From Hyphomicrobium facile (lineage in GTDB: Bacteria > Pseudomonadota > Alphaproteobacteria > Rhizobiales > Hyphomicrobiaceae): DNA of 64,000 bases. The stretch spans positions 744,001 to 808,000 of the forward strand of contig NZ_FPCH01000003.1 of the NCBI RefSeq assembly GCF_900116175.1, read 5' to 3'. Each line of letters opens with the position of its first letter. The stretch's first letter is position 1. The notes under the pieces were generated by a model, which worked only from the letters and a program-made list of their open reading frames with translations, had not been told where the DNA came from and made no database searches. Positions 5,369 through 52,056 of this stretch are shown here, piece after piece. The position numbers were made by a program, and so were the translations under genes.

Positions 5369-5535
5369 GCTCTCAAATCTCCGGCACGCTTGCCGTGCGG
5401 TCAGGGTTGCTAATTAGGGGGGCCATCTACCAATCGTCAATGTCGCTGGGGATGGCGTCCCCGTTACGAGCAGAACTGCGGCACTCAGGCGCGGCACGTG
5501 CTAGATTCGTCGAAAAATGCGGAGGGAAAAGGCGC

Positions 5536-6837
5536 GTGCAAGACATAAAGGCCACGCCGGCGCTGAGCATGCCTCAGCGGATAAAGGCCATTCTGATCGG
5601 TTCGTCGGGCAATCTGGTCGAGTGGTACGATTTCTACGTTTACACGGCTTTTTCGCTCTATTTCGCCAAAGCGTTCTTCCCCGAGGGCAATCAGACCGCG
5701 CAGCTTTTGAACACTGCGGCGATCTTCGCAGTCGGCTTTCTGATGCGCCCGATCGGGGCTTGGTTTTTCGGCCGCATGGCCGACCGGCATGGACGCCGTG
5801 TGGCTCTGACGACATCGGTGCTGCTGATGTGCTTCGGTTCGGCTCTCATCGCGGTGACGCCGGTCTATGCAACCATCGGTGTCGCGGCGCCGATCATTCT
5901 GCTTCTCTCGCGCATGATTCAGGGGCTCAGTCTCGGCGGGGAATACGGAACCAGCGCCACTTATCTTTCGGAAATGGCGACATCCGAGCGTCGCGGGTTC
6001 TATTCGAGCTTTCAGTATGTGACGCTGATCGGCGGGCAGCTGGCTGCCATGTCGGTGCTGATCGTGCTGCAAAGGTTTGTGCTGACGCCGGCTGAGCTCG
6101 AAGCGTGGGGCTGGCGCATTCCGTTCGCCATCGGAGCGCTTCTCGCCGTCATCGCGTTCGTGATGCGCCGCGATCTCGTCGAGACGGAATCCTTCCGGCG
6201 CGCGAAGTCGCATGAGGGCTCGATAGCGGCTCTGATGAGGCATCCGAAGGAAGTCGCGATCGTCGTCGGGCTGACGCTTGGCGGCACGCTGGCGTTCTAC
6301 ACTTTCACGACCTACATGCAGAAATTCCTCGTCAACACGTCCGGTTTCTCGAAGGACACGGCGACGATGATCTCCGCGTCGGCGCTGTTGATCTACATGC
6401 TGCTGCAGCCGATCGTCGGTGCGCTGTCGGATGTCATCGGCCGTCGTCCTGTGCTGATCACCTTCGGCGTGCTTGGATCGCTTTGCACCGTGCCGATCCT
6501 CACCACATTGCAATCGGTGAATGAGCCATTGCAGGCATTCGCTCTGGTGATGGCGGGGCTCGCGATCGTCTCGTGCTACACGGCCATCAACGCGGTCGTT
6601 AAAGCGGAGCTGTTTCCGACATCCGTTCGGGCGCTGGGCGTCGGCTTGCCCTACGCGATCACGGTTGCCGTTTTCGGCGGCACGGCGGAATGGGTTGCGC
6701 TATGGCTGAAGCAGTTGGGAAATGAGCACTACTTCTACTGGTATGTGTCGGGGTGCATCGCCGTCTCGCTCTGCGTCTATTGGACGATGCGAGATACGCG
6801 TTACGACAGTGCGATCGACAAAGCGGGTGGGGCTTGA
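5536..6837 (+). CDS. MFS transporter, metabolite:H+ symporter (KgtP/ProP-like)
   Basis: Inner-membrane major-facilitator transporter, 433 residues with about 12 hydrophobic segments. It has the metabolite:H+ symporter signatures GNLVEWYDFYVYT in helix 1, RPIGAWFFGRMADRHGRR in loop 2-3, and RMIQGLSLGGEYGTSATYL in helix 4; SDVIGRRPV is the second-half repeat. Relatives take up alpha-ketoglutarate, citrate or osmolytes; the substrate is not readable here. I favour the GTG at 5536, with GGAGGG and AAAAGG upstream, over longer in-frame starts from 5395 that encode unconserved sequence. It is convergent with a decayed radC 3' end 11 bases beyond its stop. Confidence 0.88.
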   Translation: MQDIKATPALSMPQRIKAILIGSSGNLVEWYDFYVYTAFSLYFAKAFFPEGNQTAQLLNTAAIFAVGFLMRPIGAWFFGRMADRHGRRVALTTSVLLMCFGSALIAVTPVYATIGVAAPIILLLSRMIQGLSLGGEYGTSATYLSEMATSERRGFYSSFQYVTLIGGQLAAMSVLIVLQRFVLTPAELEAWGWRIPFAIGALLAVIAFVMRRDLVETESFRRAKSHEGSIAALMRHPKEVAIVVGLTLGGTLAFYTFTTYMQKFLVNTSGFSKDTATMISASALLIYMLLQPIVGALSDVIGRRPVLITFGVLGSLCTVPILTTLQSVNEPLQAFALVMAGLAIVSCYTAINAVVKAELFPTSVRALGVGLPYAITVAVFGGTAEWVALWLKQLGNEHYFYWYVSGCIAVSLCVYWTMRDTRYDSAIDKAGGA

Positions 6838-6848
6838 GACGATCCAGC

Positions 6849-6942
6849 CTAGATCAGGCGCAGGACCTTAAGACTCGCGTAACCATTGCGGCCAACGACG
6901 ATATGATCATGAACGGCGCCGCTCGATAAACTGGCCGCAGTC
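6849..6942 (-). pseudogene. displaced 3' end of a second radC copy
   Basis: Read on the minus strand this encodes SSGAVHDHIVVGRNGYASLK then VLRLI and a TAG stop. It matches the last residues of the intact RadC ([22 protein letters not shown]) encoded 1.3 kb away in the same orientation. Over about 70 bases the two agree at roughly 83%, with most differences at third codon positions. The similarity fades upstream of about 6935. There is no start and no rest of the gene, so it is a remnant. It lies between the MFS gene and the acylase gene, where an uninterrupted genome would have the true radC end. Confidence 0.85.
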
Positions 6943-6973
6943 CCACGTTTTCCATATCCGATCAGGACATGTC

Positions 6974-8041
6974 ATGAAGAAAATCAAGACATCACTTGTC
7001 AACGCCTGCATGGCGGGCGGCCTTGCCGGAGCCATGACCTTTGCGTCAGCCGCAGACGCCTGCACCCGCCTTGTCTATCTTGGCGCCAACAATCTGAACA
7101 TGACGGCCCGGTCCATGGACTGGAGCGAAGAGATTGGCACCAACTTATGGATTCTGCCGCGCGGCATGGAACGTGACGGCGCTGCGGGCCCGAATTCGGT
7201 GAAGTGGACTGCGAAATACGGCAGCGTCATCGCAACCGCCTATGACATCTCGACGACCGATGGAATGAACGAGGCGGGCCTCGTCGCCAATGTGCTGTGG
7301 CTGGCAGAGTCGCAGTATCCGGAATACGATGGCAAAACGCCGGGGCTCGCGATTTCGGCCTGGGCGCAATATGTGCTCGACCAGTTCGGGACGGTTGATG
7401 AGGCGGTGAAGCATCTGCAGTCCGAACCCTTCACCCTGGTGACCGACAAGGTGCCGGGGCAGGACCGTCTGGCCACGCTGCATCTGTCGATCTCGGACGC
7501 AAGCGGCGACAGCGCCATCATCGAATACCTCGACGGCAAGCAGATTATTCACCACGGTCGCGAATTCCAAGTCATGACCAACTCGCCATCTTTCAGACAG
7601 CAGTTGGCGCTCAACGCATACTGGAAGGAAATCGGCGGCACGGTGATGCTGCCGGGAACGAACCGCGCGGCTGACCGCTTCGCCCGCGCGGCGTTCTATG
7701 TGAACGCCATTCCGAAGTCAGAGGATACACGCGAGGCGACCGCCAGCGTCTTCAGCGTTATCCGTAACGCTTCGGTGCCCTACGGCATCAGCACGCCAAA
7801 CCAACCCAACATTGCCTCCACGCGCTGGCGCACCGTGGCTGACCAGAAGAACCTGACCTATTTCTTCGACTCGGCCCTGACCCCGAATGTGTTCTGGGTG
7901 GATTTCAGCAAGGTCGATTTCTCGAAGGAAACCGGAAAGGTGCGCAAGCTGGATCTGGGGCCGGATCAGCGCAATACCTATTCCGGCGCGGCCAATGACA
8001 GCTTCGTCGAGACAAAGCCGTTCAAGTTCCTCGGGCTCTGA
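6974..8041 (+). CDS. secreted choloylglycine / penicillin V acylase family hydrolase
   Basis: Linear amide C-N hydrolase of the Ntn superfamily, 355 residues. A signal peptide (KKIK then a hydrophobic stretch, cleaved after ASAADA) leaves Cys30 as the new N-terminal nucleophile in CTRLVYLG, as required in this family. Further family marks are TARSMDWSEEIGTNLWI, MNEAGLVANVLWLAESQYP and DSAIIEYLDGK. Relatives cleave penicillin V, bile-salt amides or N-acyl homoserine lactones; the periplasmic location and the substrate are inference. It sits between a displaced radC tail and the intact radC, which suggests acquisition by recombination. A GC-rich hairpin repeat follows the gene. Confidence 0.88.
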   Translation: MKKIKTSLVNACMAGGLAGAMTFASAADACTRLVYLGANNLNMTARSMDWSEEIGTNLWILPRGMERDGAAGPNSVKWTAKYGSVIATAYDISTTDGMNEAGLVANVLWLAESQYPEYDGKTPGLAISAWAQYVLDQFGTVDEAVKHLQSEPFTLVTDKVPGQDRLATLHLSISDASGDSAIIEYLDGKQIIHHGREFQVMTNSPSFRQQLALNAYWKEIGGTVMLPGTNRAADRFARAAFYVNAIPKSEDTREATASVFSVIRNASVPYGISTPNQPNIASTRWRTVADQKNLTYFFDSALTPNVFWVDFSKVDFSKETGKVRKLDLGPDQRNTYSGAANDSFVETKPFKFLGL

Positions 8042-8096
8042 CGAGCTAGGGTTATTTGCCGAAATCGAAGGCGCATCGGGACACCCCCACCCCTAA

Positions 8097-8119
8097 CCCC
8101 TCCCCGCAAGGGGGAGGGG
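8097..8119. repeat. GC-rich hairpin, REP-like dispersed element / terminator
   Basis: CCCCTCCCC and GGGGAGGGG form a 9-bp stem around GCAAG, embedded in CACCCCTAACCCCTCC...GAACTCTTGTCCGGGTGAGG. This wording is familiar as a dispersed intergenic repeat of many Hyphomicrobiales genomes (from memory). Only one copy is seen here. It lies between the convergent acylase and radC genes and could terminate either. Confidence 0.6.
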
Positions 8120-8167
8120 AACTCTTGTCCGGGTGAGGAGCAGGCTTCGATCTAACCCACGTCCACT

Positions 8168-8953
8168 TCAAATCAGGCGCAGCGCCTTAAGGCTCGCGTG
8201 ACCGTTGCGGCCGACGATGATGTGATCGTGCACGGCGACGCCGAGCGGCCGCGACGCGTCGATGATCTGCTTGGTCATATCGATGTCGGCGCGCGACGGC
8301 GTCGGATCGCCCGAGGGATGATTGTGCACGAGGATGATGGCGCTCGCGGAGAGTTCGAGCGCGCGCTTCACGACCTCGCGCACGTAGACAGGCGTGTGAT
8401 CGACCGTGCCGTGTCCCTGTACTTCGTCGGCGATGAGCTGGTTCTTCTTGTCGAGAAAAAGGATGCGGAATTGCTCGCGGGTTTCGAAGCCCTGCACAAG
8501 GCGCAGATAATCGAGCACGCCGTCCCACGATGATAGCGCTGGCCGGGTGGCGATCTGACCTCGCGTCATGCGCTCGGCCGCGGCCTTGATCAGCTTCAGT
8601 TCTTCGACGGCGCGATCGCCGACGCCCTCGACTTCCTTCAACCGGTTGGCGGGCGCCGAAACCACATCGGCAAACGAGCCGAATTTCGCGATCAGCCGCT
8701 TGGCGATCGGCTTCGTGTCGATCCGCGGAAAGGCGCGGAACAGGATCATTTCGAGAAGCTCGTAGTCAGGTATGGCGTCGGCGCCGCCGTTCTCAAAGCG
8801 CTCGCGCAGGCGGCGGCGGTGGCCCACCTTGTCGTCGGCCACCTTTTGGCCGGGAGGCCGTTTCGCTTCGGCTTCGGGCGCGACGGAAAAAAAGGTCGAT
8901 TGCTCGGCAGCGCTTGTCTTGTCGCGAAATCCATCGGAGCGCGACATCGACAA
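8168..8953 (-). CDS. radC: RadC/YicR family JAB-domain protein
   Basis: 261 residues. A helix-hairpin-helix region ([20 protein letters not shown], about 105-125) is followed by the RadC JAB/MPN domain with the metal-binding signature [17 protein letters not shown]: His210, His212 and Asp223. Despite its name, a DNA-repair role for RadC is doubtful in the literature, and the activity is unknown. The gene ends [19 protein letters not shown], and a second, diverged copy of that tail lies at 6849-6942. The N-terminal 45 residues are low in conservation. It follows map on the same strand with an 8-base gap, so the two are probably co-transcribed. Confidence 0.93.
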
Positions 8954-8961
8954 TCACTCCA

Positions 8962-9795
8962 TCAAGCGGCGGCGCGAACGCCGTAGGGCGGGAAGTGATA
9001 TCCGGCGGGACTTTCGGTGAAAATCTCGCAGCCGGTTTCGGTTACGCCGACCGTGTGCTCGAACTGCGCGGAAAGCTCGCGGTCACGCGTTACGGCGGTC
9101 CAACCGTCCGCCAGAATTTTCACGTGCGGCTTGCCGAGGTTGATCATTGGTTCGATCGTGAAGAGCATCCCAGGCTCAAGCACGGTGCCTTCGCCCGGCT
9201 CGCCGTAATGCAGGATGTTCGGGCGATCATGGAAAACGCGGCCGAGGCCGTGTCCGCAGAAGTCGCGGACGACGCTGCAGCGTTCGCCTTCGGCGAACCG
9301 CTGAATTGCAGCGCCGATGTCTCCCGTGGTGTTGCCCGGCTTCACAACGGCGATGCCGCGCATCAGGGATTCATACGTCACATGCATCAGGCGCTCGGCG
9401 CGGCGCGAGACATCGCCGATGGCATACATGCGGCTCGTGTCGCCGTGCCAGCCGTCGACGATCAGCGTGACGTCGATGTTGACGATATCGCCCGCCTTCA
9501 GCGGCTTGTCATTGGGCATGCCGTGGCAGACGACGTGATTGATCGACGTGCACGTGGCGTAGCGATAGCCGCGATAATTGAGCGTCGCGGGGATGGCGCC
9601 GTGGTCGAGCGCGAAGGAGAGCACCAGCTCATCGATCGTCGCGGTCGTGACGCCCGGCTGGACGATGGGAACGAGCATATCGAGAGCTTCGGCTGCGAGC
9701 TTTCCAGCTTTGCGCATCGCGGCGAACGCGTCGGGGCCGTGCAGCGGAATCTTGCCGTCTCGGCTGGCCGTTTTCGATACTTCGATGTTGGACAT
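8962..9795 (-). CDS. map: methionine aminopeptidase, type I
   Basis: Removes the initiator methionine from nascent proteins; 277 residues. The dinuclear metal site is visible: Asp residues in NIDVTLIVDGWHGDTSRMY, His in GHGLGRVFHDRPNIL, Glu in FTIEPMIN and Glu in SAQFEHTVGVTE. The ATG at 9795 is chosen over the ATG at 9810 because GGAGT stands just upstream. It begins the map-radC pair. Confidence 0.96.
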   Translation of the reverse strand: MSNIEVSKTASRDGKIPLHGPDAFAAMRKAGKLAAEALDMLVPIVQPGVTTATIDELVLSFALDHGAIPATLNYRGYRYATCTSINHVVCHGMPNDKPLKAGDIVNIDVTLIVDGWHGDTSRMYAIGDVSRRAERLMHVTYESLMRGIAVVKPGNTTGDIGAAIQRFAEGERCSVVRDFCGHGLGRVFHDRPNILHYGEPGEGTVLEPGMLFTIEPMINLGKPHVKILADGWTAVTRDRELSAQFEHTVGVTETGCEIFTESPAGYHFPPYGVRAAA

Positions 9796-9959: not shown

Positions 9960-10655
9960 TTAAGCCTTGGCTTCTTCAGCGGGGACTTCAGCGGCCGTCA
10001 GCTCAGCGAGAAGACGCTGTGCCTGTCCAACCCAGTCCTGCTTCTCGATCGCGCCCTTGAGGTTCAAGGTCTCGTCGATGTTGGCGATATCTTCGTCCGA
10101 AAGGTTGGCGATCTGCTCCACCTTGTAGCAGTTGAGCTGCTTCAGGCGGTTCTGCAGGTCGATATCGATGCCCTTGATCTGCGTCAGATCCTCGGCCTCG
10201 CCCTTCGGCTTCTTGAAGCCCTTCCAGGCAGCGTTCAGGCGGCGAGCGCGTGCGTCCGTACGTTCGAAAATACGGGCGGCTTTGCCGCGGCGGCCGCGGA
10301 GGTAATAAAGCTTGGCGCGGCGGACCTTGCCACGGCGCACGACTTCGATCTCGCCGATGTAGGGCGAATAGACCGGGAATACGCGTTCAACGCCTTCGCC
10401 GTAGGAAATCTTGCGGACGGTGAAGTTCTCGTTGATGCCGGCGCCCGAACGCGCGATCACGACGCCTTCGTATGCCTGAAAACGGACCGTCGCTTCTTTG
10501 ACGGCGCCTTTCTTCTTCTTGTCCTTGGGGTCATCGACGGTCTCGACAACCTTGACCATCACCTTGACGGTATCACCAGGACCGAATTCCGGGACGCCAC
10601 GCTTCGCGAGGACGGCGTCCATCTGCTCGCGCTCGAGCTGTTGGATAATGTTCAT
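9960..10655 (-). CDS. rplS: 50S ribosomal protein L19 with C-terminal helical extension
   Basis: Ribosomal protein L19, 231 residues against a usual 115-130. The core is clear: [57 protein letters not shown] and [20 protein letters not shown]. Two additions stand out. Residues about 41-55 are a Lys/Asp-rich insert, and residues about 155-216 form a helical domain ([20 protein letters not shown] ... [13 protein letters not shown]) like the helix-hairpin-helix tails on L21 in alphaproteobacteria. The start is MNIIQQ; upstream in-frame codons to 10745 do not look coding. trmD, its usual operon partner, lies 3 kb upstream on the same strand with other genes between. Confidence 0.95.
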
Positions 10656-11799: not shown

Positions 11800-13485
11800 T
11801 TAGAAGCTGAGGCCCAAGGCGTTGCCGATCATGTCGCCGACGGTTGCGCTCTTCTTCGTCTTGGAAGTCGGGCCGTTCGGACCGTAATCGTTTTCGAGGT
11901 TCTGGCTACGAGCTGCGACGGCGGACGGGTCGAATGAAGGCTCCACGGGCGCCAAGTGATTGCGGCCCTTGTTGATCTTGTTCCATTGGCCATCGAGCGC
12001 TTGCGTAACGCGCTTCTCGTGACCGTAGACGTCGCGGAAGGTTTTCAGCTTGCCGTCTTCGCCAACCCACGCCGTGAAATAGACGAGGTGGATCGGTATT
12101 TCCTTCGTGATCGGGATCTCGTTGTTGAGCGGGCCCGACCGGTCGAGCTCAGCGATCTTGTCGGCGTCCCAGCCCTTGTCTTCATTGAGGATGAGCTCTG
12201 CCAACTGCATCGGCTTCCAGACCCGCAGACAGCCGTGGCTCAGCGTTCGCTGCGCCGGTTTGAACATCCACTTGTCGGGCGTGTCGTGCATGTAGATCGT
12301 GTGCTGACTTGGGAACGAGAACTTGACGCGGCCGAGCACGCTCTTCGGGCCGGGCGGCTGCACCACGTCATAGTTGCGGATGTCGGTCGTTGCCCAGTTG
12401 ATGCTGCGGTAGTCGACGGGGCGCTGGCCATCTTTGGTCACGATCTGCAGACCGTACTGGCGCATCATGCCGCCGCCGCGGATGAGGTTCGGCCAAAGCT
12501 CGTTGACCATGATGCTTTCGGGGACGCGCCACGCCGGGCGCAGTACGACGTATTTCAAGGGACGCGAGAATATCGTCGTCTGCTTGTCGAGGAGACCGAC
12601 GACGATCTTCTCCGAGCGGATGATTTCGCCGTCCTTGTAGACGTACTGCATGTACTCGGGGATGTTATTCAGGACGTAGAAATCGCCCATGTTGGTCCAC
12701 ATCCAGCGCCACATCTCCATGTTGGTGCGGATGCGCTTGGCGTCGGGGCTCAGCTTCCCGGGTTTGCCGTCCTTGGGCAGCATCGTCAGATAAACTTGGC
12801 GCAGTTTTTCGAATTGCGGCTGCTGCGGCTGAAGGCTGCGCAGGTAGGCGTCGGGCTCACGCGTCGCTGCGAGCGCTCCGATGACGATCTTGGGTTCGAT
12901 CCATTGCGGACGCCGGTCGAAGTTCGTCGTCAGCATTTCGGCGGGATCAGGAATGCGGCCGCCGCGCGCGTCGCGAGCATAGAGAAGCGCCGCTTTCGAA
13001 TATTCGATTTCGGCGTCGGCGAGCGAGTCCGTGTCGGTTGCGGACAGCGCACCTTCGTTGAGCGCCGGAAGCTTGAACCTCGCCGGATCGAGGCCGTACG
13101 CCCAGCCATTCTCGATTTCGGTCGCGAGCGTCTTGGCTTCAGGCTTCACGCCGGCCGCCGTTACCCAGAGCGCCTCTCCGTGGTGGGCCGCGTAGAAATC
13201 GATGAGCGCGGTTTGGTCCTTGCGGTCGCGGTCTTCCTCCGCTGCCGGGCCGCCGGCGAGTTTGCTGCGCACGGCCATCAGAACGGCGTCGTCGTGCACT
13301 TCCGGGGTCTGGACTTCGGACGCGGCGGCAGGCTCGGTAACAGCGGTCGACGGCGGTGCTGCGGCTGCGGGCGGTGAAACGTCTTCTGCAAATGCCGGAT
13401 ATGCAACCAGCGTTCCGGCGATCAGCATTCCGCCGAGAATCGTCCGGCGCGGCAGACTAAGCAGAAGGTTCTTGAAACTCTTCAT
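11800..13485 (-). CDS. L,D-transpeptidase (YcbB/LdtD-type)
   Basis: Periplasmic peptidoglycan cross-linking enzyme of 561 residues. An N-terminal signal or anchor (hydrophobic residues about 15-33, ending AYPAFA) is followed by a Pro/Ala-rich linker, a scaffold region with peptidoglycan-binding-like helices (GWAYGLDPARFKLPAL), and the YkuD catalytic domain. The active site reads SHGCLRVWKP, with nucleophile Cys419. The YcbB class makes 3-3 cross-links between diaminopimelate residues. It lies between trmD and rplS on the same strand, breaking a normally tight operon. A second, different YkuD protein lies 1.4 kb away. Confidence 0.92.
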   Translation of the reverse strand: MKSFKNLLLSLPRRTILGGMLIAGTLVAYPAFAEDVSPPAAAAPPSTAVTEPAAASEVQTPEVHDDAVLMAVRSKLAGGPAAEEDRDRKDQTALIDFYAAHHGEALWVTAAGVKPEAKTLATEIENGWAYGLDPARFKLPALNEGALSATDTDSLADAEIEYSKAALLYARDARGGRIPDPAEMLTTNFDRRPQWIEPKIVIGALAATREPDAYLRSLQPQQPQFEKLRQVYLTMLPKDGKPGKLSPDAKRIRTNMEMWRWMWTNMGDFYVLNNIPEYMQYVYKDGEIIRSEKIVVGLLDKQTTIFSRPLKYVVLRPAWRVPESIMVNELWPNLIRGGGMMRQYGLQIVTKDGQRPVDYRSINWATTDIRNYDVVQPPGPKSVLGRVKFSFPSQHTIYMHDTPDKWMFKPAQRTLSHGCLRVWKPMQLAELILNEDKGWDADKIAELDRSGPLNNEIPITKEIPIHLVYFTAWVGEDGKLKTFRDVYGHEKRVTQALDGQWNKINKGRNHLAPVEPSFDPSAVAARSQNLENDYGPNGPTSKTKKSATVGDMIGNALGLSF

Positions 13486-46252: not shown

Positions 46253-47644
46253 ATGCTGGGCCGCACTGAGACAGTCTCCGGCTCCGGAAACGAAGACAGA
46301 ACGGGTGTTTCAGATGGCGTTGCGGGCGGCGTTGCCCGGAATGTTTCTGGCGCTCCACCAGCCGGTGATCCTGCCGCCACACAGAACATGCTGCTGCTGA
46401 TCCAGCTTCGCTGGATCGCTGTCGCGGGGCAGATCGCAACGATTGTTTTCGTCGAGTTCGTCCTCGGCATCGGCCTGCCGCTTTTGCCGATGGCCGTGAT
46501 CATCGCGGCCCTGATCGCACTCAATCTCGCAAGCCTTGCCTGGCTCAGAAACGGCCGTGAAGCCGGAGACGCCGGTCTACTCGGCGCGCTTTTGTTCGAC
46601 GTCGCGGCCCTGACCGCGCAACTCTACTTCAGCGGCGGTGCGACGAACCCGTTCACATTCCTCTATCTCTTGCAGGTGACGCTCGCCGCCGTGCTGCTCG
46701 ACAGGCGTTCGACGTGGGCCGTCGTTGCTGCGACATGCGCAAGCTTCGGGCTGCTCACCGTCGATTACAGGCCGCTCGCCGTGCCGGAAGGCTTCGGCGA
46801 TCTCTTCAGGCTTCATATCATTGGAATGCTCGTCTGCTTTGCGCTCGACGCAGCTTTGCTTGTTGTGTTCGTGACGCGCATCACGCGCAATCTTCGAGAG
46901 CGCGATGCGCGGCTCGCGGCGTTGAAGCAGCACGCTGTCGAGGAAGATCACATAGTTCGCATGGGCCTTTTAGCCTCGGGCGCGGCGCATGAACTCGGTA
47001 CGCCGCTCTCATCGCTCTCGGTCATTCTCGGGGACTGGCGGCGCGTGCCCGCAATCGCATCAAGTCCTGAGTTGCTGGAAGAGGTCGAGGAGATGCAGGC
47101 AGCGGTGAAGCGCTGCAAATCGATCCTGACCGGCGTCTTGTTGTCGGCCGGCGAAGCACGCGGAGAAGCGCCGCGCGTGACGACGGTCAACACCTTCGTC
47201 AACGAACTCGTGGAAGAATGGCGCGCCGCGCGATCGCCGGCATCGCTCGACTACACCAATGCGTTCGGGGCGGATCTCCCGATCGTGTCGGACTCGACGC
47301 TGAAACAGGTCGTCTTCAACGTGATCGACAACGCCTACGATTCGTCGCCCGCATGGATCGGCGTTTTCGTCGAACGCATTGGGGACGCGCTCGCCATACG
47401 CGTTTCGGATCGCGGGCCGGGGTTCGCGCCGCAGATGCTCGCCCAGTTCGGCAAGCCCTATCAATCAAGCAAGGGACGTCCGGGCGGCGGCCTCGGGCTG
47501 TTCCTCGTTGTGAATGTGGTACGCAAGCTCGGGGGCAGCGTCTCGGCAGCCAATCGCCCCCAAGAACATGGAGGCGGCGCAACCGTGACGCTGAAGCTGC
47601 CGCTTGCTGCCTTGGCCCTCGGAGCGCGATCGCATGGAAACTAA
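46253..47644 (+). CDS. regB: redox sensor histidine kinase RegB/PrrB/ActS
   Basis: Membrane kinase of 463 residues with about six helices (46-210). The quinone-binding heptad GGATNPF (128-134) is the RegB signature. His246 in GAAHELGTPLSSLSV is the phosphorylation site. Cys288 in VKRCKSIL lies 42 residues on and corresponds to the redox-active cysteine of Rhodobacter RegB (by position and context). The HATPase has NVIDNAYDSSP and DRGPGFAP. It follows SURF1 by 6 bases and overlaps regA by 11. RegB monitors the quinone pool and oxygen, and here it is beside a quinol oxidase operon. Confidence 0.93.
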   Translation: MLGRTETVSGSGNEDRTGVSDGVAGGVARNVSGAPPAGDPAATQNMLLLIQLRWIAVAGQIATIVFVEFVLGIGLPLLPMAVIIAALIALNLASLAWLRNGREAGDAGLLGALLFDVAALTAQLYFSGGATNPFTFLYLLQVTLAAVLLDRRSTWAVVAATCASFGLLTVDYRPLAVPEGFGDLFRLHIIGMLVCFALDAALLVVFVTRITRNLRERDARLAALKQHAVEEDHIVRMGLLASGAAHELGTPLSSLSVILGDWRRVPAIASSPELLEEVEEMQAAVKRCKSILTGVLLSAGEARGEAPRVTTVNTFVNELVEEWRAARSPASLDYTNAFGADLPIVSDSTLKQVVFNVIDNAYDSSPAWIGVFVERIGDALAIRVSDRGPGFAPQMLAQFGKPYQSSKGRPGGGLGLFLVVNVVRKLGGSVSAANRPQEHGGGATVTLKLPLAALALGARSHGN

Positions 47645-48167
47645 TCGCACGCTCGTGATCGTCGAAGACGATGCCGCCTTCGCGAACACGTTGAAGCGAT
47701 CGTTCGAGCGGCGCGAATACGTGGTCGATGTCGCATCGGGGCGCGAGGCCTTGGAGGCGATTTTGGATGTGCGGACGCCGGGCTACGCGGTCGTCGATCT
47801 GAAGCTCAACGGCGAATCCGGGCTCGCGTGCGTCGAGGCTTTACACGAGCACGATCCCTCGACGGTGATCGTCGTACTGACGGGGTTTGCGAGCATCGCG
47901 ACGGCGGTTGAAGCGATCAAGCTCGGCGCGCGGCATTACCTCGTAAAGCCGTCGAGCTCGGACGATATCGAGGAAGCGTTCGGCAGGGCCGAGGGCGACA
48001 GCGCCGTCGCGCTGACCGAGCGGCCGACGTCGATCAAGACGCTCGAATGGGAGCACATTCACCAGACGCTGGTGGACACCGGCTTCAATATCTCCGAAGC
48101 CGCAAGAAGGCTTGGAATGCATCGGCGGACGCTGGCGCGGAAGCTGGAAAAGCGGCAGGTGAAGTGA
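47634..48167 (+). CDS. regA: response regulator RegA/PrrA/ActR
   Basis: DNA-binding response regulator, 177 residues. The receiver has Asp55 in YAVVDLKLNGESGL and Lys in LVKPSS; after a linker, the Fis-type helix-turn-helix reads GFNISEAARRLGMHRRTLAR and ends KLEKRQVK. RegA controls respiration, carbon and nitrogen fixation genes in relatives. The 3' third of this gene exists in two further decayed copies, at 49200-49275 and 50804-51019. It overlaps regB, so the two are translationally coupled. Confidence 0.95.
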   Translation: METNRTLVIVEDDAAFANTLKRSFERREYVVDVASGREALEAILDVRTPGYAVVDLKLNGESGLACVEALHEHDPSTVIVVLTGFASIATAVEAIKLGARHYLVKPSSSDDIEEAFGRAEGDSAVALTERPTSIKTLEWEHIHQTLVDTGFNISEAARRLGMHRRTLARKLEKRQVK

Positions 48168-48183
48168 GGGGGTGAGCGCTCCA

Positions 48184-49116
48184 TCACCGGTTCGACCGCA
48201 ATAGATTTCCAATTCGGGCGAATAGCCCGCCGGAATTTCTAGGTTTCGCCTTATCGCTTATTATTTTCGACAGCTGCCGTGCCAGCATATCGCAATCGAT
48301 GGGTCCGTGACTTTCACCCTGCGTCAGCAGATGATAGCGCTGGCCGAGATGGCCCGCCAAAGCACTGAAGTGGTCGGATTTTTGGGTGCGGTCGCGGGGC
48401 ATGATTTCGAGGACATCCAGGTTATCACTGGCCCACAGCAAATTCGTAAGGGCCGCCCCGTGCTGAGCTATAACGATATCGGCCGTTTCGAATAGGGCCA
48501 TCTGAAACGCGAGCGACTTTCCTTCCAACGTGCATGGTAGCAAATTCAGATTTTGCGATAATAGAAAGTGGGCACATTCCGGAAAGTTTTTGATCGATCG
48601 CCTGTCACGGCCTGCGCATGTGATCTCGGAGTCGCCTGTCGAATACAGGAGCGTGGGGTCGCCTCTATCGATGAAGACTATTCGTGGTCCGGCGGCCGGA
48701 AACGCATCACGCAACGCACGCTTCTCGTGTTCCACACTGTCGAATAATTTCGCTTCCAGTTCTCGTTTCAACGACCTGAAAGCGGTCGAGTCATAATAGC
48801 GGCGGTTGTCGAAGCCATAGATTGTTTCAACGCGCAGTTTTGAATTGTTGGTTGCCCGCGCATTCTCCAGAAGCAGGGCATGCTCCAGCTTCGGGAGTAT
48901 CCTTACGCCGTGGGGCAGGACCTCGCGGATGAGTCCGTCCATCGGCCCACAGCTTCTCACGCAAATCGTTTCGGCTCTATCACCGAGCGTTGTGATCCAC
49001 AGAATGAGAGGCGCAAGAAAGCCGAGCAAGAAATGGTAGTAGTGCTCAACCGAGCCCTTGCGATTTATGATATCGACGACCAATGCCTCACTGAGACCGG
49101 TCGAAATTTCGATCAC
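48184..49116 (-). CDS. family 61 glycosyltransferase (DUF563), possibly 5'-truncated
   Basis: 310 residues with the GT61/DUF563 core: SVEHYYHFLLGFLAPLILWI, RIVFIDRGDP, and the hallmark DIVIAQHGAALTNLLWASDN, followed by VLEIMPRD. It transfers a sugar to an unknown acceptor, likely surface polysaccharide. It opens with a GTG, and an in-frame stop lies a short way upstream, so the core starts only about 24 residues in, where relatives usually have many more residues. A 5' truncation is possible. Its stop lies 16 bases from the regA stop, convergent. It is part of the regA-tail island. Confidence 0.8.
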   Translation of the reverse strand: MIEISTGLSEALVVDIINRKGSVEHYYHFLLGFLAPLILWITTLGDRAETICVRSCGPMDGLIREVLPHGVRILPKLEHALLLENARATNNSKLRVETIYGFDNRRYYDSTAFRSLKRELEAKLFDSVEHEKRALRDAFPAAGPRIVFIDRGDPTLLYSTGDSEITCAGRDRRSIKNFPECAHFLLSQNLNLLPCTLEGKSLAFQMALFETADIVIAQHGAALTNLLWASDNLDVLEIMPRDRTQKSDHFSALAGHLGQRYHLLTQGESHGPIDCDMLARQLSKIISDKAKPRNSGGLFARIGNLLRSNR

Positions 49117-49199
49117 GCGCGACCCCCATCCCCCAGTTGGCCGGATATTACGTTAGCGGATTTATTGGGGAGGAGTAGAACATTTCGATGCTGCGTTGC

Positions 49200-49275
49200 G
49201 GCTCGGGATGCATCGACGGAGCTGGAAAAGTGGCAGGTGAAGTGAGGCGTTCGCGCTCCATCACCAATTCGATCG
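49200..49275 (+). pseudogene. decayed copy B of the regA 3' end
   Basis: Matches 48109-48198, the last 19 codons of regA plus about 30 bases beyond its stop: ATGCATCG..CGG, a gap of about 14 bases, AGCTGGAAAAG, GGCAGGTGAAGTGAGG and GCGCTCCATCACC. The match past the stop also covers the last codons of the convergent glycosyltransferase gene (SN then W or R, and stop). It lies between the glycosyltransferase and sulfotransferase genes. Confidence 0.9.
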
Positions 49276-49381
49276 GGCGTGAGAAACGTCTGACGCGGAA
49301 ACTTGGGGATCATAGACCCCTGGCCATTCGGGATACGCCAAATTGCCTATAGCTTCTCCTTGGGGTGACTGGAGGAGCGCG

Positions 49382-50515
49382 ATGAGCAAGCAAGTATTTT
49401 TGCACATCGGTGGCGAAAAGACTGGCACAAGTACTCTGCAGAGTTTCCTAACTCGGAATGCATCGCGTTTGAAGAGATCTGGTTTCTACTACCCCTGCGA
49501 AGCAAGCAACATTTGCTTCGCCAGCATGGCCCATCTCCCTGTTGCTGCCTGTTTGATCGACGAAAAAGTCGAGTTCGTGAGTGAAAAAAGTCAGCGCACG
49601 CTTCCGTTCGTTCTCAGGGTGCTAACGCGGGTGGTCGCGGCGACCGAGGGAGCGGTCGTTCTATCCTGTGAGCACTTCTCATCGAGATTAATGCAGAAGC
49701 GGCAGCTCGTGGCGTTACGGAACGCCTTACCGGCGGACGAGATCAAGGTCGTCTACTACATTCGGGAACCTTCAGAACTCGCTTTGGCTGCCTGGTCGAC
49801 TGGCATCCGATACGGTGGAAGACACTCGTTCAACGTCAATGATGTCACGCCCGAAAGTCGATATTATAATCACCTGGAAACTCTAAAATTGTGGGGCTCG
49901 GTTTTCGGTGAGCCGAATTTAATCGTACGAGAGTACAATCGTGCGCTTCTTAAGAACGGTGACATACGAAAGGATTTTTGCGCGCTACTCGGAATTAAGT
50001 CCGAAGATATGCGGTTTGACGAAGATGAAAATCAGTCGTTCGACGTGCAACGCCTGGAAGCCCTCAGATACATCAACGGCGCTTTGCCCGCATTTCATGA
50101 AGGGGAAGCTGAATGGCGCCGGGCCCAAAATATAAGGCGGCTCGTTTCCACGTACATTCCTGAAAGTGGGACGTTGAAAGCCTTGATGAGCGAGGGGGAG
50201 CGCACTCTCATCAAATCGCGGTTCAGCGATATCAATCAGGAGATAAGCGAGCGATATTTTGCTGGTCAACTCTCGCGCGACTGGTTTCCCGATTGCTCGG
50301 AGCGGGAAGAAAGAACTGATCTTCAGCATCGCTCCCAAGTGGACTTAGCTTCCGTTCTCCGGGAAACCGTCATTCGATTAGCTGAAGCGAATGGCGATTA
50401 CGCCCGTCCGAAGGTGAAGACGAAGCTCAGAAAGCTTTTGAAGCAGATCAGACAGAGTCTCTTCGAGAGTGTTTTTAGACCCATGCCATCGGCAATTCGC
50501 CGACGAAGTCCTTAG
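49382..50515 (+). CDS. sulfotransferase-like protein
   Basis: 377 residues. The 5'-phosphosulfate loop FLHIGGEKTGTSTLQSFL (about 6-23) and the 3'-phosphate segment KVVYYIREPSELALAAW fit PAPS-dependent sulfotransferases of the bacterial surface-glycan kind; the acceptor is unknown. The C-terminal 60 residues are basic. GGAGG stands before ATG 49382; an ATG at 49343 is less likely. Base composition is visibly lower in GC than the flanks, suggesting transfer. It lies between two regA-tail copies next to a glycosyltransferase, consistent with decoration of a surface polysaccharide (inference). Confidence 0.75.
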   Translation: MSKQVFLHIGGEKTGTSTLQSFLTRNASRLKRSGFYYPCEASNICFASMAHLPVAACLIDEKVEFVSEKSQRTLPFVLRVLTRVVAATEGAVVLSCEHFSSRLMQKRQLVALRNALPADEIKVVYYIREPSELALAAWSTGIRYGGRHSFNVNDVTPESRYYNHLETLKLWGSVFGEPNLIVREYNRALLKNGDIRKDFCALLGIKSEDMRFDEDENQSFDVQRLEALRYINGALPAFHEGEAEWRRAQNIRRLVSTYIPESGTLKALMSEGERTLIKSRFSDINQEISERYFAGQLSRDWFPDCSEREERTDLQHRSQVDLASVLRETVIRLAEANGDYARPKVKTKLRKLLKQIRQSLFESVFRPMPSAIRRRSP

Positions 50516-50518
50516 CGC

Positions 50519-50761
50519 GTGGTGAGGTGTCTGGTCTCTTCTGCTTTTTCGATGACCTTACAATTCCGTATCTCTTGCGCCGCGGTTGGATCATCCTCTG
50601 CACTCAGCGTACAGCCCAAAAAGGGGCGGCTCGCAGTGCATCTTGCTTTTTTGATTACGTTCCTCGCTCTCCTTGGCAAAGTCGGCGCGACCGCCATTGC
50701 AGTGTTCATCACTCTTTTCGGCCTTATCCCGTGGCTCATCGCGAAAATCTTGAGGTGGTGA
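50519..50761 (+). CDS. possible small membrane protein
   Basis: 80 codons from GTG 50519. The second half is strongly hydrophobic (LAVHLAFLITFLALLGKVGA, TAIAVFITLFGLIPWLIAKI), giving two likely membrane helices. There is no clear ribosome site and no family. It may be a genuine small membrane protein or a fragment within the decayed island. Confidence 0.3.
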   Translation: MVRCLVSSAFSMTLQFRISCAAVGSSSALSVQPKKGRLAVHLAFLITFLALLGKVGATAIAVFITLFGLIPWLIAKILRW

Positions 50762-50803
50762 ACCGTACATTCTTCAGAGCGCCTTGTTCGTGCGCCTCCC
50801 TGA

Positions 50804-51019
50804 AGCTTGGACGATATCGAGGAAGCGTTCGGCAGGGCCGAGGGCGATAGCCGTCGCGCTGATCGAGCGGCCGACGTCGATCAAGACGCTCGAATGGGGG
50901 CACGTTCACCAGACGCGTGTGTGGATACCGGTTTCAATATCTCCGAAGCCGCAAGAAGGCTTGGGATGCACCGGCGGACGTTGGGCGTGGAAGCTGGAGA
51001 AGCGGCAGGGGTAGTGAGG
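50804..51019 (+). pseudogene. decayed copy C of the regA 3' end
   Basis: About 91% identical to 47955-48169 (codons about 108-177 and the stop of regA). It has a 2-base loss after GAGGGCGATAGC, compensated by a 2-base gain near GACGCGTGTGTGG, a 1-base gain in TTGGGCGTGG, and an altered end (GGGGTAGTGAGG). There is no start and no receiver domain, so it is not functional. It forms the right edge of the accessory island. Confidence 0.92.
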
Positions 51020-51028
51020 CTTGGGTCC

Positions 51029-51775
51029 TCAGTTCGTGACCTGCGAAACCAAGAATTCGTGTTGTTCTCCGGCGAAATCGACTGTGATCGCGTAGGATTT
51101 TGGCGCGCTGCCAGAGTACGCCGGTTGGTCAAGCACAATAGTGCCGCCGATCCACTCGCCCGGCATCACGGTGTTGTCCTTCAGAATGGTGTTCTGGAGC
51201 TGAGATAAATTCTGCTCGCCCTGCGCCTGAAGGGCAGCGATTTCTTCGCGCGTTTCGTAATTCGCGTTTTGCTGCGCGATTTGCGCTCTGAGCGGGTCAT
51301 AAGTCGTTGCTGTGTAAGTTCCATAGTTGCCATTCGCGCGGACGGTTCCCGTCGTGTTGACGTAACCGGCATTGGCTGCGTTGATTCCACGTGCGGTGGC
51401 CGAGAGGACCGCGCCGACGGCTTGAATAGTTTGGCGTGTTTGTTCTTCACGTACCAATTCGTCGTATCGATAGATGCGCAGCGCAGCTTGTCTGCCATCA
51501 ACCGTCTGGTGCGCGTTGATATTCGCTTCCATTAAGGTCTGCGGTTTATTTTCGAGATTCCGCACGGCTACGGTGAACGCCGGTCGCGCATTGCCTTTCA
51601 GAAGCTGATTATTTGGCCGTAGCATCACCAAGTTCTTTTTCTTCGATATCAAAGATGGGATGCCATCGCGCACGATCGCTTCCTGGCCCGGCGCCGCGGA
51701 AAGCTGAATTTTTTGCGAAGCGCATGCAAAGAGAAGTGGCGATATCAAAATTGTGAAAAACGGAATTGCACGCAT
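51029..51775 (-). CDS. hypothetical lipoprotein
   Basis: 248 residues with a lipoprotein signal ending LLFAC (Cys18). The N-terminal domain (FTVAVRNLENKPQTLMEANI) and the C-terminal one (PGEWIGGTIVLDQPAY, ITVDFAGEQHEFLVSQV) look like beta sandwiches joined by an alanine/glutamine-rich helical stretch. Function unknown. Its stop is 10 bases from regA copy C, convergent with it. Confidence 0.7.
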   Translation of the reverse strand: MRAIPFFTILISPLLFACASQKIQLSAAPGQEAIVRDGIPSLISKKKNLVMLRPNNQLLKGNARPAFTVAVRNLENKPQTLMEANINAHQTVDGRQAALRIYRYDELVREEQTRQTIQAVGAVLSATARGINAANAGYVNTTGTVRANGNYGTYTATTYDPLRAQIAQQNANYETREEIAALQAQGEQNLSQLQNTILKDNTVMPGEWIGGTIVLDQPAYSGSAPKSYAITVDFAGEQHEFLVSQVTN

Positions 51776-51979: not shown

Positions 51980-52056
51980 TGGTACCGCCTCCCAGATTTG
52001 AACCGGGGACCTCTAGATCCACAATCTAGCGCTCTAACCAACTGAGCTAAGGCGGC
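51980..52056 (-). tRNA. tRNA-His (GTG), alphaproteobacterial type without G-1
   Basis: 77-nt cloverleaf including encoded CCA. Acceptor GCCGCCT pairs with AGGCGGT, the D arm has TAGCTCAGTTGGTTAGAGC, the anticodon arm is CTAGA-TTGTGGA-TCTAG with anticodon GTG, and the T arm is CCCGG-TTCAAAT-CTGGG. The base before G1 is T rather than G, position 72 is U (G1:U72) and the discriminator is A73, instead of the near-universal G-1:C73. Confidence 0.97.

Follow-up and report, generated by a model that had tools for sequence, protein, structure and literature searches.

The window analyzed here, a 64-kb stretch of the genome of Hyphomicrobium facile, carries a gene for a RegB/ActS/PrrB-like histidine kinase (positions 46253-47644, + strand; NF033792, E 2.8e-67, under the curated cut-off), followed on the same strand by an intact gene for a RegA-like response regulator (47634-48167; PF00072 and PF02954; NF033791, E 2.8e-47, under the cut-off), the product of which matches those of its closest relatives at 98%. 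The name regA, under which the gene had been described, is right insofar as it encodes an intact RegA-like regulator, but the gene is a paralogue, as a second RegA with 43% identity to that of the window is encoded on contig C5. This regA was found in 11 of the 22 genomes of the genus, and in all 11 loci a tRNA-His gene (51980-52056 in the window, - strand) lies to its right, with a cargo between the two that varies. The regA–tRNA-His stretch is an insertion hotspot, anchored by regA and bordered on the right by tRNA-His. In the window, regA is followed, as had been claimed, by a glycosyltransferase gene (48184-49116, - strand), which belongs to family GT61 (PF04577, E 1.2e-13). This gene was present in only 2 of 103 genomes of the family, our own (G000) and G020, in which its right edge looks the same, and a search of viral contigs returned no match to its protein. 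The next cargo gene (49382-50515, + strand), identified as an open reading frame, has no family assignment and has homologues in 5 of the 103 genomes, our own included. Its description as sulfotransferase-like goes back to an N-terminal motif; no significant Pfam, NCBIfam or PADLOC match stands behind it. Both cargo genes have a GC content of 0.50-0.55, compared with about 0.61-0.66 in the flanks. Further right there is an 80-residue open frame without known family (50519-50761, + strand), which may not be a gene, and a lipoprotein-like gene (51029-51775, - strand), probably an older cargo, which G005 and G007 also carry at this position and which is itself patchy (5 of the 103 genomes, in 3 of them at the regA locus). 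A Pfam scan of the island genes of the window and of selected frames of G016, G014, G004, G005 and G013 detected no recombinase, and the sole integrase seen was in G008, where a duplicated end of tRNA-His adjoins it. The genome itself encodes Ku, a GTA protein and ComEC, the last of which is common.

The existence of two decayed copies of the regA 3′ end downstream of the intact gene, on which the original prediction rested, was confirmed by repeat search, own-genome search and profile. The distal copy, c3 (50804-51019, + strand), corresponds to the last ~213 bases of regA and is, as described, frameshifted, 216 bases long and 91% identical to the gene (E 1.5e-80 in the repeat and own-genome searches). 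The proximal copy, c2 (49177-49275, + strand), is made up of the regA 3′ end, from which internal stretches have been deleted, the stop codon, and about 30 bases that match the 3′ end of the GT61 gene; of this copy, the own-genome search picked up 28 bases at 49220-49247 (96% identity, E 5.5e-6). It had been described as 76 bases of the last regA codons at 49200-49275: it is a copy of that end, but it starts at about 49177 and is interrupted by deletions, and its last ~30 bases lie past the regA stop and are not regA codons. Elsewhere in the genome the search gave a single weak match, on contig C4 (about 62 bases at 74%, E 8e-4). A profile of the tail, made from the 11 intact regA genes, scored 183 bits at 50803-51015 (c3) and 26.7 bits at 49179-49244 (c2). 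In a background of 1.58 Mb (780 kb of the own genome and 400 kb each of G004 and G136) a single score of the size of c2 was obtained, 27.0 bits at L202, and it fell on the receiver-domain half of the profile (model positions 32-125); among the best eight matches per sample none started past model position 165. Judged by these scores against the background, c3 is beyond doubt and c2 is clear of the background for its tail part.

Tail copies were present in 3 of the 11 regA-bearing genomes of the genus (our own, G007 and G014), and all four copies lie on the regA strand, downstream of regA. Since the copies are decayed, the positions of their left edges, counted from the gene end, are approximate: about -213 for c3, about -150 for the G007 copy, and between -65 and -90 for c2 as well as for the G014 copy, the last two being inseparable, so that they might coincide. 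The edges as a whole do not fall at one fixed crossover point. In a tree of the tails, where support was weak for most copies, c3 fell into one group with the intact regA of the window (support 83, branch 0.07), and c2 stood much further apart (branch 0.30, based on just 69 positions), with nearest sequences one or two positions apart (G007 56, G016 55 and G000 54 of 69). The tree alignment misplaces the G007 copy because its length was fixed, and the argument on G007 therefore rests on a separate comparison of the tails and on the stop codons.

The G007 copy ends in a TAG stop, which is common to G014 and the outgroups G012, G004, G013 and G019, and continues into ~340 bases that are colinear with the sequence downstream of regA in G014 (93%); related sequence likewise follows regA in G012. 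In G012 and G014, hence, regA is joined to the sequence found to the right of the copy in G007, which represents the uninserted site. The intact regA of G007 shares sites with G014 to about -43, and its last 42 bases, with a TGA stop, are those of the window's regA, which places an allele switch at -43 to -31, ~110 bases away from the left edge of the copy. An intact end of donor type together with a displaced end of recipient type was found in G007 only. G007, which provides the best evidence for displacement, shows by its alleles and ancestral neighbour sequence an insertion that renewed the regA end and displaced the old tail, with an allele switch. In the regA-regB region upstream of the switch, G005 is nearer to G007 than G014 is in 4 of 12 hundred-base windows, and equally near in one, and therefore alleles were exchanged there more widely than a single event would explain. 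Relatives with other sequence between regA and a tail copy, which had been predicted, were thus found in G007, where it is the lipoprotein gene, and in G014. The other arrangement named as support, regA continuous with the lipoprotein gene, is absent from all relatives examined; about 360 bases separate the two genes in G005 and G007. In G016, G020 and G005 cargo was present and no tail copy was detected.

The same anatomy was observed at a second, unrelated gene of the window. A decayed copy of the radC 3′ end (6853-6922, - strand; 84% over 70 bases) lies beside an MFS transporter gene (5395-6837, + strand; PF00083/PF07690), which adjoins radC in convergent orientation in cargo-free relatives, and a gene of the choloylglycine-hydrolase family (6974-8041, + strand; PF02275, E 7.3e-45) separates it from the intact radC (8168-8953, - strand; PF04002, E 6.7e-42). 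The cargo and the radC tail copy occur in 3 of the 19 genomes in which both genes were visible, and in 10 of the 16 genomes without cargo no more than about 35 bases separate radC from the MFS gene, which is the uninserted site. The comparison shows at radC an insertion with a displaced tail like that at regA. At both G007 regA and radC the copy is downstream, in the same orientation as the intact gene, and has a different sequence to its right; in c2, the first ~30 bases to the right are the same as those to the right of the intact gene, i.e., the GT61 3′ end.

When intact genes were scanned automatically for copies of their own tails further downstream, the window yielded two such genes, and the samples of the own genome (780 kb), G004 and G136 (400 kb each) yielded none. 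Opposite arrangements occur a few times in those samples (e.g., L196, L210, L219 and L225), and the predicted arrangement is therefore not in excess there. A separate locus, L154 (G000:C4), resembles a displaced 5′ part of a gene named by eye as CusB-like, its main repeat being classed as mid-gene. Weak matches aside, no regA tail copy was counted in 39 of the 40 order- and family-level loci, L096 being out of the count with merely 16 bases downstream. The uncounted weak matches were one of 73.6% over 72 bases, 7.3 kb off, in L114, a 32-base match in L126, and others on the minus strand in L097, L101 and L126; a recurring 20-base match in this set was an artefact of query overlap. Among the public loci, 79 of 80 were scanned (L278 was too short), 7 of the genus and 72 from outside it, some of the latter from the same genomes as in the order- and family-level set; again, none was counted in the 72, weak matches aside, and those in L283 and L315 did not, on inspection, look like regA tails. 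In these loci regA tail copies thus showed no wide spread.

We consider it rather probable that genes enter the regA–tRNA-His hotspot by a RecA-dependent, one-sided capture anchored in the regA 3′ end, with no integrase involved. Incoming DNA from a relative would bring a donor regA end together with the adjoining gene, and a homologous crossover within regA would exchange the recipient end for the donor end, so that the protein would stay whole. Closure of the other side would follow from a single crossover if the donor was a circle, or else from illegitimate joining within regA, and with either closure the old regA tail and the old neighbours of the recipient would be shifted downstream, where the tail would then decay. 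A single crossover would require donor-type left parts in the displaced copies. The need for RecA, the form of the donor (circular or linear), the way in which its DNA arrived and the succession of events in the genome of the window are matters of inference. The single strand and side of all copies, the alleles of G007, the unequal left edges, the absence of a recombinase from the scanned proteins and the anatomy at radC speak for this reading. According to excerpts of PMC3240628, 56 of 60 E. coli recombinants obtained with a donor of one-sided homology gave the PCR product diagnostic of a partial target duplication, and the duplications in 14 sequenced recombinants spanned 109-950 bp and were ascribed to single crossing-over. 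Several points count on the other side: regA does not carry tail copies in general; the G000 copy nearest regA is the more diverged one, against a simple stacking; the GT61 right edge, which looks the same in G000 and G020, could mean a defined cargo end; the sequence of G007 upstream of its switch is not nearer to G014 throughout; G016, G020 and G005 have cargo and no detected tail copy; and downstream tail copies are not in excess in the genome samples outside the window.

Such an edge would suit a site-specific integration, in which elements with a tyrosine integrase attach at the regA 3′ end, bring a replacement end, and later lose the integrase. Phage 21 and e14 bring a replacement 3′ end at icd in this manner. 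The order gene, cargo, displaced tail, the single orientation, the long tail homology, the possible common left edge of c2 and the G014 copy, and the integrase island at the neighbouring tRNA-His in G008 are all consistent with it, but no integrase was recognised among the scanned island proteins, the left edges spread over ~150 bases, and the switch in G007 lies ~110 bases from the left edge of the copy, when one crossover should put both together. Because the edges do not all coincide, no integrase was recognised and radC has the same anatomy, a regA-specific attachment site was ranked below one-sided capture, and we regard it as unlikely. The run of c2 past the regA stop into a match with the GT61 3′ end is what a local tandem duplication of the regA tail and its neighbour would leave if one neighbour copy decayed, with no horizontal transfer. 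This reading seems unlikely, given that the copies in G007 and at radC have another, ancestral neighbour to their right compared with the intact gene, that the two tails of G007 are different alleles, and that the cargo is patchy and lower in GC. The alleles of G007 also argue against an insertion with long target duplication (Nobusato et al. 2000), by which some mobility process of the cargo's own would copy recipient sequence: since its intact and displaced tails differ, the new tail, at least in G007, arrived either together with the cargo or in a later exchange. Single genes between direct repeats of the target, and the placement of c3 and the intact regA of G000 in one allele group, fit such an insertion, which we nevertheless hold to be quite improbable. 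Lastly, and in our estimate quite unlikely, the regA 3′ end could be an integrase-free landing and shuttling site, from which tail-bracketed cargo would be excised by homologous recombination as a circle with one tail and inserted additively, in one orientation and with regA unharmed, into any related regA; if so, the hotspot would behave as an array of cassettes driven by RecA, in which regA always stays the first gene.

Of the two successive insertions originally predicted, insertion with a renewed end and a displaced tail is upheld by the alleles and ancestral neighbour in G007 and by the patchy, lower-GC cargo; the order of events is not. A simple order with the newest insertion nearest to regA was not borne out, because the regA-proximal c2 is more decayed and contains the GT61 gene end. 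The c2 copy may be older or may have decayed faster, and its divergence and GT61 end would fit an allele replacement of GT61, a local tandem duplication, an import of GT61 together with an old scar, or a fresh second displacement.

The regA locus, where single genes were inserted repeatedly behind a regulator gene and old copies of its end persist as decaying scars, clearly exemplifies a route of gene gain, known but little studied, that can do without a dedicated mobile element. Gene-end scars make an anonymous variable region partly readable, in that the direction and the donor allele can be read from them, as can, if care is taken, the order of gains, and they point to a way for single genes to enter the chromosome without a mobile element and with the anchor gene unharmed. 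That a single 64-kb window holds such scars at two genes unrelated to each other suggests that a straightforward scan for displaced gene ends could tell how often the route was taken in many genomes, although the own-genome sample gave no further tail scar.

Known systems share parts of this anatomy. The minimal mobile elements of Neisseria, like the regA hotspot, hold different genes in each strain between two conserved genes, but the swaps there are not known to leave gene-tail scars. In the long target duplications described by Nobusato (2000, via PMC4978471 and PMC1643837), genes were inserted, as at regA, with a duplicated stretch of the target; in the passages cited these are often restriction-modification genes, in H. 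pylori, whereas at regA the cargo is varied, the events are serial and the tails of G007 differ in allele. The E. coli recombinants (excerpts of PMC3240628) share one-sided homology and partial target duplications with the route proposed here, although they come from laboratory plasmids and the regA case from genomes; homology-facilitated illegitimate recombination proper, by the same excerpts, generally gives deletions. At rhs loci (Jackson 2009, PMC2935791, as cited in PMC5361080) displaced old 3′ ends also persist, as strings of orphan 3′ regions, but those 3′ regions are variable, in contrast to the invariant gene end at regA. The T6SS effector genes, in which sequential displacement leaves arrays of immunity genes (Kirchberger 2017, PMC5361080, in part), likewise have a conserved upstream anchor, with DNA inserted downstream and old 3′ parts shifted back, and the process proposed for them resembles homology-facilitated illegitimate recombination; the parts displaced in those arrays belong to the variable effector-immunity module, whereas at the regA locus a preserved regulator anchors unrelated cargo.

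Downstream of the RegB-like kinase (46253-47644) and RegA-like regulator (47634-48167) genes, which lie, by eye, downstream of apparent cytochrome oxidase genes, the window carries two decayed copies of the regA tail, c2 (about 49177-49275) and c3 (50804-51019). A GT61 glycosyltransferase gene (48184-49116, minus strand) lies between regA and c2, and a gene of unassigned family (49382-50515) between c2 and c3; to the right of c3 are a lipoprotein-like gene (51029-51775, minus strand) and tRNA-His (51980-52056, minus strand). The tail copies recognized in the original prediction were found to be real: c3 is 91% identical to regA over 216 bases, and c2 scored 26.7 bits with a regA tail profile, the one comparable score in 1.58 Mb of background being located in the receiver-domain half of the profile. 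Across the accessory genes (the cargo), GC drops from about 0.61-0.66 to 0.50-0.55, and rises again to 0.57-0.59 around c3.

Displacement of a regA end was best seen in the related genome G007. In G005 and G007, regA is separated from the lipoprotein gene by some other sequence of ~360 bases, in which G005 has a 92-residue frame; G007 has, past the lipoprotein gene, both a tail copy and an older segment, called D. The stop of this tail copy is TAG, which is also the regA stop of G014 and of the outgroups G012, G004, G013 and G019, and the ~340 bases to the right of the copy are 93% identical to the sequence that follows intact regA in G014 and in part follow intact regA in G012. The intact G007 regA shares the informative sites of G014 up to about -43 (counted back from the regA end), and from there on is identical to the regA of the window, with a TGA stop. 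Taken together, the copy, its flank and the allele switch show that a new regA end now precedes the lipoprotein gene, the old end and its old neighbour having been displaced to a position beyond that gene. In the sequence upstream of the switch, 4 of 12 windows of 100 bases place G007 closer to G005 than to G014 and 1 places it equally close to both, so the region has undergone more than one exchange.

In the window, c3 clusters with the resident regA (tree support 83), which argues for its displacement within this lineage. The original prediction of two successive insertions was partly supported; simple stacking with the newest insertion nearest to regA was not borne out, because the regA-proximal copy, c2, is the more decayed one (far more diverged than c3; 69 comparable positions). 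Past the regA stop, c2 continues into a GT61 gene end, which has GCGTTCGCGCT in common with G020. The GT61 right edge, which adjoins c2 in H. facile and the right flank in G020, looks alike in the two genomes. Each of the following would explain the order of the copies: a GT61 allele replacement, the import of GT61 along with an old scar, a local duplication, or faster decay.

The regA-tRNA-His interval is a hotspot in the genus. A regA of this type was found in 11 of 22 genomes, with tRNA-His to its right in all 11 loci, and the interval holds GT61 in G020 and a DUF2806 gene in G016. D is present in G014, together with a tail copy and an Abi_alpha gene, and in G012, together with a small open frame; this small frame is also present in G013, in G019 and in G004, where further frames accompany it. 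Of the window's cargo, GT61 is found in 2 of 103 family genomes, and the gene of unassigned family and the lipoprotein gene in 5 each. The DUF2806 and Abi_alpha genes are possibly involved in phage defence; the G016 and G014 cargo gave no PADLOC match. The 9-kb interval of G008 (within G008:C17:191000-205500) is a classic tRNA island at the same hotspot, with a tyrosine integrase between tRNA-His and its duplicated 3′ end.

The same anatomy was observed at a second anchor gene in the window, where intact radC, a choloylglycine-hydrolase gene, a radC-end copy (70 bases, 84% identity) and an MFS gene follow one another (5395-8953). Among 24 loci examined, radC and the MFS gene were both visible in 19 genomes; cargo and the copy were present in 3 (H. 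facile, G016 and G020), and in the other 16 the radC-MFS gap was about 35 bases or less (10 genomes), 100-200 bases (3) or about 1 kb (3). The ancestral radC-MFS junction is kept at the copy, and the structure is an insertion rather than a tandem duplication. About 1 kb of other sequence at this junction in G006, G015 and G017 is perhaps a further insertion. Between radC and its cargo, a short repeat (8082-8122) matches many places in genus genomes.

One-sided homologous capture fits these structures better than site-specific integration. Among the island proteins scanned, the G008 integrase was the only recombinase recognised, the left edges of the copies are not all alike (about -213 for c3, about -150 for the G007 copy, and -65 to -90 for both c2 and the copy in G014), and in G007 the allele switch lies about 110 bases away from the left edge of the copy. 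With a donor homologous at one end, 56 of 60 E. coli recombinants are reported to give a PCR product indicative of a partially duplicated target; in the 14 that were sequenced the duplication measured 109-950 bp, and single crossing-over was given as the cause. The same report describes deletions as a general outcome of homology-facilitated illegitimate recombination (PMC3240628). Such recombination, or loss of tails, could account for G016, G020 and G005, whose cargo has no tail copy beside it. Since H. facile encodes Ku, a gene-transfer-agent protein and ComEC (a common protein), delivery and end joining are possible.

A scan for a gene with its own tail downstream detected two such genes in the window, whereas 780 kb of the same genome and 400 kb each of G004 and G136 gave none. 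Outside the genus, weak matches aside, the 39 usable order- or family-level loci yielded no accepted regA tail copy, and neither did the 72 non-genus loci in a scan of 79; the two sets overlap. Elsewhere in the H. facile genome (G000:C4:1100001-1120000), pieces of a CusB-like gene (5′ half and upstream region; 9090-9272, 12562-12744, 10276-10402, 12732-13104) occur a second time some 3 kb upstream, where they surround a hydrolase-like gene; this is possibly a displaced 5′ part. At the level of titles, the literature search found none with regA or radC as anchor. Close models are the sequential displacement described for Vibrio T6SS loci (PMC5361080), the displacement of rhs C-termini (PMC2935791) and, as described in citing papers, insertion with long target duplication. 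The process belongs to a known kind, of which it is a variant on account of the serial scars beside a preserved regulator together with the allele evidence in one relative.
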